From: Artemia franciscana
Lineage: Eukaryota; Arthropoda; Branchiopoda; Anostraca; Artemiidae
NCBI RefSeq assembly: GCF_032884065.1
Contig: NC_088873.1
Span: 23,735,558 to 23,799,557, forward strand
DNA: 64,000 nucleotides
Direction of reading: 5' to 3'
The notes under the pieces: model-generated
What the model was told of the DNA's origin: nothing
Database searches by the model: none
What the model saw: only the letters and a program-made list of their open reading frames with translations
Shown: piece by piece, positions 45,401 through 54,400 of the stretch
Layout of the letters: each line of letters begins with the position of its first letter
Position numbering within the stretch: position 1 is the first letter of the stretch
Program-made: the position numbers and the translations under genes

Positions 45401-48400
45401 TTCATGCAATTTATATTTGTTTTCTTGTTTCAACATAAAAAAGCGTTTCACTTCTTCTGCCAGAGAGAGTATGCATGATCGAATTTTCGAATCATCGAGC
45501 CATTAGAGGCTGAAACAGAGAAACTATTTCATCGTATCAAATTAAAAACAATTAAAGCGAGAAAGAAAGAGGAAAGCAGAGGACATTTCAGAGATGGAGA
45601 AAGGGAGGGACAGAGAGGAAAAACATCTAAAATCATCGAGGTTGCCATTACAGCGACTAGAAATAGTAAACTACAAGTTTTTTACTCAGAAGATACGTGT
45701 ATTAGCCAATTAAACCTGGCTTCTCTGATCTCAGTAGTATGATTTGAGCCACACGAGAAATCTACAGATGCCGTGGTCACAGAGAGAACGAAAAATATGA
45801 TAATGAGTGAATATCCAGTTTGAAAACATGTTGTCATACACATCAAAAGTTTCAGAAACTTTATTCGGATGATGAAATTTCTCTATAAACCTTCAATCGC
45901 CTAGCCATTTAACACACTCAGCAGGAACATTAATTTCAAAGACTGAGAATAGGCTAAAGTTTTACAGTTTATTCAGGCCTAGTCAATACAAAATCAACAA
46001 TAAAACAAAGGCAACCGGAGCTATATTCGAAATACTGCAGCTTCTAAATACTAACCTATTTAATAATAAAAAAAACTCAAAAAACAGGAATATCAACAAA
46101 ACACACTAAAAAACCAAAATAAAAACACGAAGTTAATTTTGAGTTAATAATTCGACTCAGCGACTACCGCATGATCAAAATAGAAACAAATTTGGAAAAT
46201 GAGCTAAATGAGTAAACGACAACAAAATGGTTTTTATTGAGGATTAAGGGGAAAGCCCAAGTAACCTTAAGAGGACATACCAACTCTAAAGTAGGATTAA
46301 ACCCAAGATCTTTACTTCTCCCTGGTCTTAGAAGAGTAGAAAAAGTCCTTGAGAATAAAACTCTAGGAATGAAGTAGTATCTATTTCACTAGGCCCTCAA
46401 GGTAAAACTGAAAATAAAACAAGAACAAGCATATATTTTAAAAACGGATATTTTGATAGAAATAAATTTTGGAAAGCAACATCGAAAGTTAAGCATTTAC
46501 ATACAAATTTATGCTGAATAATGTTGGAACCATGATAATGGACACAGCATATAAAATATAAGAAATATGAACTAAAGAAAAAGAACAACTGCAAATCAGA
46601 CATTGGTCATTATTGGGAGAAAAATAACAGAGCCTTTCGTAAAACAGGAACAGTTCGAGCTAAAAAAAAAAAAAAAAAGGTTTTGCTCTAGATGCGTAGT
46701 GGGCACTAAGTACTAACTATGTCTCCAGCACCACATAAAAAGAGCTCATCACCAGAACAACAGGAATTTACAAGAGAATAAAAACACCAAACTCAAAAAA
46801 CAATCACAAACTCGAACCACAGTAACGAATTTTTTTTTTTTTTAGAAAAATGTAGTCTTTGAAGAAATATCAAGATCATTCAAGTTCAAATTCAAAAAAC
46901 AGGTTGCCATCTTTTTATACTGTTCGTTGTTCACAGTCGTCTGTTTTGGAATAAGTCGCTTACATAATCTTGAAACCGCATATGTCGACGCTGGGATATT
47001 TAAGGTATTTATTGCGATTGAAGCCAATTTTGGATGGTGTCTGCGTGCAAAACTCCAGTAAGTTAAAGGGTTTAAGTTGTTCTTTTCATTCAACATTCGA
47101 AATATACCTTTGTTTTCTTTATATGCTTGTACGTCTTCCAATGTCTCTGCATCAGAGCTTGCAATGAAATAGTCTTCCAGGCGGCCAGCGTCTTCTTTAG
47201 CAAGGCTTTTACCTTTGAATCTTGGATCTAAAAAGTTGGCAAGCAATGCTGTTATTGTTAATAAGTTTTTTCGACAGCCTTCCAATAAATGTATAAGACA
47301 TTTATCTGAAATTGTCAGATTTAACCACAATTGAATGCCTTCAGCCAGATTCACGGTTTTGTCTCTGCATTTATTTATTAAACTGCTCATTGGTACTAAG
47401 GTTTCTATTAGGGTTAGTGCCTCATTTTCCAAATTTTTTGAGTAAATTGGAGTAAGTTTCTCCGGTTTCTCAATAACACTGGAACAATTTTCTGAGGCGA
47501 GTATATTTTTCAGCAACGCAATATTTTCTTTAAAGCTGACAAGTGCTTCTAAATAGGTGAGCGGATATCCTTGCGTTGGCACAACTACTTTTCTGCCCCC
47601 TGCTTCCAGAAGGTAGCTGCTTGTTCTTGGCTTCACAATTTCATTCAATATAGAAAACACAGGGTCTATGACAGTTTCTCTCTTCAGTCGAAGAGCTTCT
47701 TCAATTAGTAGCAGCATAGGGTAGCAACACGATTTAGCCACAAGAAACTTATCATTTTCTTCAAGAAAAGGAAGACAGATTGTACTTCCAAGAAGCACCG
47801 GAAATGAAGAGTTATTAAGCAGAACTGAGACGTTGTCATTTAAGAAATCTTCTTTCCAAATTTCGTAAAATTCATAAACACTTCCCGTTTTCATTAATAC
47901 AACGACACCATTCTCTTCGTAGCCCCGACAAATTATTACTGTTGACACCTCAGGAGAAGATTGACAAATAAAATCATAGTGCAACTTATCTAACACAGGA
48001 TTTAAGAGTTTTTTCATGTCAGGTGGAGTATAGTCAGGATTCAACGCTTGTATTAAGTCCCGATAAAAACGAGAGTTAGACGCCAGGGGATTAACTCCAC
48101 AAGCAAAAAAGAACTTTGCTGTTTGAAAATCCAATTGTTCTTTTCTATCATCTGTCAGTTTTAGGTGATTCCTATCAAGACTGGGGCTAGATTGCACATC
48201 AAACATCTTCGATCTCGACTCTCCATCTTTTACCCGTGCGTTAACCATTTCTGAAGAAGAACCACTGCCACAAATGACTTGCTGATATATTCCACCTGGA
48301 ATTTCGATCTCGATTGGAAATTTACAGACAGAGGGCCCTTCACCAAAATCATTCTCATAAGTAGCAGGAGCAGAAAAGTCAGACTCTCTTCCACAAAATG

Positions 48401-51400: not shown

Positions 51401-54400
51401 GAAATATGAAGAGAAAAATGAAAAATTAGGGCAGATGTTTTTTTAATAACAAAAAACAAATTAGGTGAGAAAACCAGGCTTTAACAAGTAGATAAAATGA
51501 AAAGATAGCTAAATTATCCATTATTAGAGGGAAAAATCCCTCTTCCCCAGACTATTCATAATTAAATATGCTGACAATGTCGCATGTTTATTTCGACTGA
51601 ATTGGAATCGGAAACCGCATTAGAAACTGGACTGTGATATGGAATCTGAATCAGAGGAAAGAGCATAAGTAATAATATCTTTGTCACATTAATTTGAACC
51701 TTAAAATTGATTATTATGAAATAGGTGCATTATTATATAGTCTAAAATCCATACTGACATGTTAGTCGGAGAGCGATTTTTTTTTTTTTTTTTTTTTTTT
51801 TTTTTTTTTTTTTTTTTTAATTAGGGAAGTTGTAGTGCCATGTCACTTTAACTTTCGGGGACTGATTTTAATCGAAGGTAACTAGAAGGTCCAAATAGGG
51901 ACCTTCAAGTTATTTTCACGTTTATACCCCCCACCCACCTCCTTTTACAACAAATTGAATTCTCATGAACTTGAACGATTCCTGTTCAACGTGAACAATA
52001 CTTTCACGAATGGATCGACAGCCCAACTTTAAACAAGTGAAGATATCGTCAAGATGCTCCATCCACATCTCCTTTCTAATAGAACATTAAATCTTCTGAA
52101 GATTAAAAGCATTTTGCGTCAGGTGAATGAAACTTTCTGAAATAGATATACAGCCCAAATTAAGATCTGGAAGTACATTTTCAAACATCTATCACCTCTC
52201 TTTTTCTAATTACTAGATTCAAAAGATTCTACGAAGAATAAGTTCTGAAGTTTCTTAGAATTTATGTTAAATCCTAGAATCCTACTCGCCAAAGCCCCTG
52301 GAGACCAAGTAAAGCAAATTCTAAGCCAACCTTTATAACATTATTATTATTTTTTTTAAAGTTAACAACCGAAAATAAAAAGGAAGTAGAAACTTCAAAG
52401 TATCTTCTCATGCCCTAGTTTAGGCGAGAGATCCATTATGCAAGCTTCATTCGCCTAACGAATCAACTATCCGAGTAACTTGACAGCCAGTAACCAATAC
52501 TTTTATTCATTTCTTTTATCCACACAACAGCGATTTTACCCTTTCTGAACTTTTGTGAATTTCGTATTGCACTAACAAAGAGGGAAAAACTGGTTTTCGA
52601 CAAAAAAAGGAGAAACAGTGATAACCACACAAAGAAAAGGGGGCGGGTAGAAAGGAGCACCCAAAAAAAAATCTGAAGACTTCAGGAGGTAAAGCCTTGA
52701 GAAGAACTCTTTAAGAGAGTTTAGAAGAATTAAGAAGAATGTTTAAGCCCATTTTTAATTATTAGACCCCACCCCCTCGATATCTCTTCGTATCTATAAT
52801 ACTCAGGACTGTGTGCAACGAAACCAAATACAAGTGTGCAAAAATTAAGAAATTTACCTTTAAAATTGTGCTTTCAAAAATGTTTCTGTTTGCTTTCGGA
52901 GTGAACGATTCGAGAGGTTTTCTGCTAAACACTGGGGTTGATGCCGCACTTGGTCGTGAATCTCTTGTCGGTGTTGATTGGCCAGCCAAAGGATCGAAAT
53001 TTGCGGAGTTCAAAAATCTCGACGGGCTAAACGGATTTTCTTTGTCTTCGTGTAAATCAACATTATGTACCTCAACTCCACGACGTCGGCGAAGAATAGG
53101 TGGGGTTGATGTGGCTCTTTGAAGAACAAAGTGAGCTGTGATACAAAAGGCAATGAGAAAATAGCCAAATGCTATATTAATAAGAGAAAATTAGCTGTGG
53201 CGATTCAAAGCTATCATGGCACCAATAGGAAGCAAAAACCACGCATAAGGATTAATTTGGGAAAATTCAATCAATACATTTTGGTATAAACGAACATGTT
53301 TTGGTCCATGATGATGCGCAATGAATAAAGTAGTTCTAAGCTTAATAGCCCCAAATAAACTTTGCATCTTGAAAGTTTTACAAGGCACGAGTACTATTTG
53401 AGTAAGATAACCATTTTGAGAATCCTTAAACCAGAATTTAGAAGCAAAAAAAAAAAGAAAGACCTAATGTTCCTTAAATATATATTGGTCCTATTCTTGG
53501 CGAGAGTTTACTCCTTGAGTTTTTTTATTTCAGCCGTGAGTTAATGTATTTTTTTTCTAATTTCTGTATTTTTGGTTCCCTTTAAACTAAATTATTTCAA
53601 ACACCTATTTAATAGTAACCTATGGCAATCCGCGATGCAATTATGAAAAAGAATATACAATTTTGGTTTATTGACTACTATGAAGGGATGTGGCATATTT
53701 GCCTTTTCTAGAATTGGTCTCCTAAACAAATGCATTGTGAAAAATACACTTTCAATATGCGTTTTTCTTTTCCATGTCTTGAAGTCCTAAGAAATATCTT
53801 TCTTAATCTAACAAGATTTCATTACAGACAGGCAAAACTCAAAAATGCCCAATAGCCAAACATTCCCCCTCTCTTATAAAATGCATATTATTAAACTTGA
53901 CTCCGATTAAATTTCCAAAATTAAAAGAGCCTCAGGCTTTTTTTTCTGAAACATATTCGTTATTTTGCCCTTGGTACATTTTCAAAGGTTAAGATTTTAG
54001 GGACTAAAAATATTTAACGGTTTTAAAGCCTAGTGATAAAAAAAACCATTTACTTCAAAAGTACAAAAGCAATCCATTTTGTTTTGATACAATCCTAAAA
54101 TACGAATATATTCAGTAATAGCATTTACTAAGAAAAGCACCAAGAAAATCATCGACTAAAGTTTCAAAAATTTAGAAAACCTAGCAGCAGCTAGCGCACG
54201 GTGGAAGAACTAGCCTATATAAATTTTAATAATTGAGAAAATCACACCGGTTAGATTAAATTTGGTGTTACTTCAAAATTAAAGTACCAAGGACATCAAA
54301 ATGAAAACATTTTTTGCCCCCTGGATCCATCTAAAATCTATTCATACCTGAAAGCCGGGATTTTCTACAATTTTCTTTTGGTGTTTATACAATTATTATT

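Follow-up and report, generated by a model that had tools for sequence, protein, structure and literature searches.

The open frame and its start

The window analysed here is a stretch of 64,000 nucleotides of Artemia franciscana (contig NC_088873.1, positions 23,735,558 to 23,799,557 of the forward strand). It holds a Myb gene on the minus strand and, inside one of the Myb introns, an open frame of 642 codons that appears to derive from a transposase of the hAT superfamily. The frame is probably an old, single-copy hAT gene, dead for transposition and domesticated, which is nested on the strand of its host in a phase-0 intron. Its features are the following (window coordinates; E, expect value).

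46842..48770, minus strand: hAT-derived open frame of 642 codons, stop codon included (sequence; the only match at E ≤ 1e-3 in the own genome is the frame itself)
46842..48695, minus strand: probable true coding part, 617 codons from Met26 (composition shift at Met26; protein properties)
48696..48698, minus strand: candidate splice acceptor CAG adjoining Met26 (sequence; rank 44 of the 449 AGs of the intron by an approximate matrix)
46959..47123, minus strand: predicted hAT C-terminal dimerisation segment, amino acids 550-604 (PF05699, E = 1.5e-4; Hermes as best PDB sequence)
46971..46973, minus strand: Ser600, opposite E572 of Hermes (ungapped alignment with Hermes)

Read from stop to stop (48770-46842, minus strand), the frame is the longest of the eight frames of at least 150 amino acids in the window. 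One of the remaining seven is the Myb R2R3 exon (second and third Myb repeats) and six show at most Pfam matches below the cut-off, which agrees with the original prediction that this is the only unbroken transposase-like frame. The probability that 617 random codons of the composition of the intron contain no stop is about 1e-17.

The coding part likely starts at Met26. The corresponding ATG (48695-48693) is immediately preceded by CAG (AG at 48697-48696), as had been noticed before and was confirmed in the sequence. The GC content is 0.32 in codons 1-25 and 0.42 in codons 26-100, a modest contrast given the values of 0.39 and 0.37 in later parts, while the proportion of purines at the first codon position is 0.52 and 0.77, respectively. 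Met26 was taken as the start because the composition shifts at codon 26 and because 25 codons could well be open by chance in this Myb intron (probability of 0.20). The region of amino acids 26-100 is strongly acidic (32% aspartate and glutamate, pI of 4.05). Three psi-K-x-E stretches with a putative role are present in the protein, at positions 93, 116 and 362. The layout TTTCAG/ATG, together with the composition shift at the ATG, would also suit a nested gene of the same kind in which the CAG serves as acceptor for the trans-splicing of a spliced leader; CAG before ATG is common, however, and this variant is considered highly improbable.

The Myb host gene

The gene model has five exons, all on the minus strand, whose sequences form a single open frame when joined. 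The gene is organised as follows.

63591..63995, minus strand: Myb exon encoding R2R3 (Pfam Myb_DNA-binding, E = 4.8e-35; gene model)
56986..57265, minus strand: Myb exon, regulatory region (open joined frame)
52858..53135, minus strand: Myb exon upstream of the hAT-derived frame, with donor AAG/gtaaat in phase 0 (gene model)
44530..52857, minus strand: Myb intron of 8,328 bases in phase 0, which holds the hAT-derived frame (gene model)
44365..44529, minus strand: Myb exon downstream of the hAT-derived frame, within Cmyb_C (TPTPFK) (Pfam Cmyb_C, E = 1.5e-6; gene model)
39959..40141, minus strand: Myb exon, further C-terminal region (open joined frame)

By eye, an additional R1-like Myb exon was recognised beyond the window on the upstream side (L002 near 4748). 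With three Myb repeats, of which R1 was identified by eye only, and the Cmyb_C region, the host gene corresponds by its predicted domains to an animal Myb. The hAT-derived frame lies on the same strand. Frame and gene model thus agree with the earlier proposal of an intact hAT-derived gene on the Myb strand inside a Myb intron. The donor at 52858 is indeed in phase 0, but the exon that carries it, previously numbered Myb exon 3 and counted among the DNA-binding exons, is the third one in the window and codes for a segment of the regulatory kind; R2R3 is located at 63995-63591. Altogether, an intact, apparently intronless, single-copy frame is nested within a host intron, an arrangement like that of ZBED6.

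Two other introns of Myb (window positions 42014-43680 and 58483-60375, plus strand) contain runs of short frames whose peptides look alike by eye and which probably belong to one repeat family.

Descent from the hAT superfamily and the active site

The dimerisation domain of hAT transposases (PF05699), the single Pfam family found in the protein, was detected in the whole frame with 21.9 bits (cut-off of 21.4, E = 1.5e-4) and in the C-terminal half alone with 23.4 bits; no other part of the protein could be recognised. When the last 111 residues were compared with PDB sequences, Hermes was the best match (E = 0.014 for the whole sequence, 0.27 for the stretch itself). Residues 541-573 of Hermes (letters and numbering taken from 8edg_A) align without gap with residues 569-601 of the frame, with a score of 70, whereas none of 500 shuffles scored above 50. 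The presence of this C-terminal segment, in the same register as in Hermes and other hAT transposases, points to a descent from the hAT superfamily.

In the ungapped alignment, Ser600 takes the place of E572 of Hermes, which we take to be the catalytic glutamate. The ER.FS pattern was kept in all 14 stretches of the own genome that were picked for their long open hAT frames and represent about four families. A looser form of the pattern was present in 19 of 30 further loci from the PF05699 search and in none of the other 11; one of the 19 (L023) is not hAT-like. The glutamate that an active hAT transposon would carry is thus replaced in the alignment, and at least one residue required for transposition seems to be missing from the frame. 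The segment of Hermes around D180-D248 (Hermes 176-257) was aligned with amino acids 505-561 of the frame at chance level (4 of 300 shuffles did as well), and the loss of both aspartates is therefore not claimed. A single-sequence AlphaFold model of amino acids 202-642 was useless as a fold (mean predicted local distance difference test score of 36).

The frame had been described as devoid of a BED finger, and none was found by Pfam or when all three frames of the minus strand between 46842 and 53000 were scanned for the C..C...H/C motif. By definition, it is therefore not a ZBED transcription factor. The accompanying argument that the missing finger fits a borrowed DNA-binding domain was not retained, as borrowing is not needed to explain the absence of the finger.

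Copy number and element ends

The own genome comprises 1.27 Gb in 6,468 contigs. A search with the frame protein, in which the best three first-look candidates were scored, returned only the frame itself at E ≤ 1e-3; at E ≤ 10, one extra match was obtained at chance level (E = 1.73, two stops). As a control, 3,103 first-look candidates for PF05699 were obtained from this genome, and all of the best 150 that were scored were above the cut-off. By BLAST, the frame had no close relative among the 14 long hAT frames (best E = 6.6) or among the 30 hAT loci (best E = 0.57). The several related copies that characterise an active hAT transposon were thus not detected. Many near-identical copies with terminal inverted repeats (TIRs), which had been named beforehand as one of two findings that would refute the proposal, were looked for in the 1.27-Gb genome and not found. 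As expected for an animal gene, there were no relatives in IMG/VR (one scan), in phages (tblastn) or in GTDB genomes (one scan, 35 pattern matches, 0 relatives).

TIRs with an 8-bp target-site duplication (TSD) were sought by comparing 52840-48700 with 46841-44550 in four settings, each with 20 mononucleotide shuffles. The numbers of matches were 7, 1, 6 and 4, with shuffle means of 3.15, 0.8, 2.4 and 1.95 and shuffle maxima of 8, 3, 5 and 5. All six matches of the third setting contained three mismatches in the TIR and one or two in the duplication. There is thus no clear TIR/TSD signal around the frame, as would be found with an active hAT element. Taken together, the single copy, the serine at the position of E572 and the lack of a clear TIR/TSD indicate that the transposon is not live.

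An origin as a retrocopy was considered in view of an A-run after the stop codon. No exact repeat of 8-16 bases starting at most 6 bases past the run was found at 49800-48600, and this candidate was rejected.

Possible constraint on the frame

Stops inside the matched stretch, which covers at most 84 codons, were present in 36 of the 150 hAT rows of the own genome (16 of the best 30 and 20 of the other 120). An open frame of at least 642 amino acids free of N was found in only four of the 150. Since an old neutral frame should contain stops, the 642 intact codons of an apparently old and lone copy suggest constraint.

The same frame could be an inactive hAT relic with no host function, open by chance or a fairly recent arrival from a family that is otherwise lost. 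hAT copies are abundant in the own genome, the matched stretch is free of stops in 114 of the 150 rows, and frames of 709-793 amino acids exist in some copies. For this reason, an open frame alone is no proof of selection; the long copies do keep ER.FS. The absence of a sister copy and of a clear TIR/TSD, together with the serine at the catalytic position, argues for an age at which a neutral frame of 642 codons should have acquired stops, and a relic is considered unlikely.

These stop-free rows and long frames weigh against a domesticated gene, and so do several other observations. Selection is deduced here from the intact frame itself. The support by PF05699 is barely above the cut-off, and the frame is absent from the best 150 PF05699 rows, of which the lowest has 36.1 bits. 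The genome searches score the best first-look candidates only, and remote kin might escape them. The whole frame has no match among PDB sequences up to E = 10 and none in NCBIfam. The original prediction of a hAT core and a dimerisation domain holds for the latter (amino acids 550-604); the RNase H-like core is not recognisable, and Pfam gave no match for that part. Finally, one of the four TIR/TSD settings exceeded its shuffle maximum (6 versus 5).

In the own genome, a hAT frame of 2,587 codons at L045 (C17:2706000-2715900) appears to cross a stretch of N, so that it does not attest a genuine long frame.

Relation to the Myb transcript

The position of the frame next to a candidate acceptor raises another explanation, in which the Myb pre-mRNA is spliced from 52858 to 48695 and the Myb repeats and regulatory segments are fused to the hAT-derived part. 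Such a product would lose the C-terminal region of Myb (exons 44529-44365 and 40141-39959) and gain the hAT dimerisation module, the DNA-binding domain being that of the host. Both sites exist, the Myb donor at 52858 and the acceptor before 48695, and both are in phase 0. An AG right before an in-frame ATG is, however, in phase 0 by construction, four of the five modelled Myb donors share this phase, and AG precedes four of the 11 in-frame ATGs of the hAT-derived frame, Met26 included. As a phase match is to be expected often, the argument from phase is weak.

The splice sites were evaluated with approximate matrices. With a score of 1.04, the acceptor falls within the range of the Myb acceptors, of which four could be scored (2.25, 4.57, -1.17 and 2.56), but its rank of 44 among the 449 AGs of the intron makes it usable, not special. 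The composition shift coincides with the AG before Met26, in favour of the fusion; a methionine at this very place fits a separate gene, while a fused exon would need none. The fusion would further require an intronic polyadenylation site. Below the frame, AATAAA is present at 46238, 45973 and 45865, but hexamers of this kind are common in the AT-rich intron. General precedent exists, as fusions of host genes with transposases via alternative splicing are established in tetrapods (PMC8616336), and 22 of 53 human protein-coding genes nested on the strand of their host were judged most likely to be host splice variants (PMC3192792). An in-frame join to Myb is thus possible, but weakly supported by the sites themselves, and the fusion is regarded as rather improbable.

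Proposed expression and function

As a domesticated nested gene, the hAT-derived frame would be old and under selection, and would be translated from Met26. Its mRNA may be transcribed from a promoter inside the intron, and may then begin with a non-coding 5' exon that ends at the CAG or lack such an exon. Alternatively or in addition, it may derive from the Myb pre-mRNA via intron retention, by analogy with ZBED6 in ZC3H11A. The protein would dimerise through the hAT C-terminal segment and, instead of serving as a transposase, could contribute to gene control as a cofactor or partner via its acidic N-terminal region. No isoform fused to Myb would be required.

The closest parallel is ZBED6 of placental mammals, a hAT-derived gene without introns that lies in intron 1 of ZC3H11A and is expressed as an intron-retaining variant (PMC2780926). 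In cattle, two start sites, the second being its own, are reported for ZBED6 (PMC3819241). The two cases have in common a single-copy intronless hAT frame in a host intron, a dimerisation segment and the (here predicted) loss of transposition. ZBED6 has two BED fingers, and its DNA binding and repression have been shown; in the present frame, no BED finger was recognised, and the host gene is Myb. As with the ZBED transcription factors of metazoans (PMC10027918), the frame would represent a lineage-specific taming of hAT transposases. The survey of these factors relied on searches by the BED domain and by complete ZBED genes. Compared with Hermes and other hAT transposases, the frame differs by the BED finger that was not found, the serine at the position of E572, the lack of a clear TIR/TSD and the absence of a second copy.

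Host-transposase fusion genes of tetrapods, such as KRABINER, resemble the locus in that a transposase-derived frame lies beside exons of a host transcription factor in a phase compatible with splicing (PMC8616336). In most of these, the DNA-binding domain comes from the transposase, whereas here it would have to be that of Myb. Among the open-licence papers listed, no case of a Myb-hAT fusion or of a nested hAT gene lacking the BED finger was found by title and abstract.

If domesticated, the gene would add to the catalogue of tamed transposases a hAT member whose active site is altered and in which no BED finger is recognisable, and the Myb intron would harbour a second possible regulator that may share the transcription of Myb. 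Should the fusion be true instead, the roles in this host-transposase fusion would be reversed, DNA binding being provided by the host and dimerisation by the transposon.

Other features of the window

Neither Rfam nor ARAGORN gave any match within the window. By eye, two frames at 12778-13624 (minus strand) suggest a further hAT element, broken and belonging to a different group (FHELALWGLHE-like), with no Pfam match. A frame of 155 codons at 7002-7469 (minus strand), also without Pfam match, resembles by eye a GIY-YIG stretch of a Penelope-like element. Broken pieces similar to a long interspersed nuclear element are located at 1368-5283 (plus strand), with PHD-like (E = 0.0012), Exo_endo_phos_2 (E = 9.8e-4) and RVT_1 (E = 0.0099) matches that are all below the cut-off.

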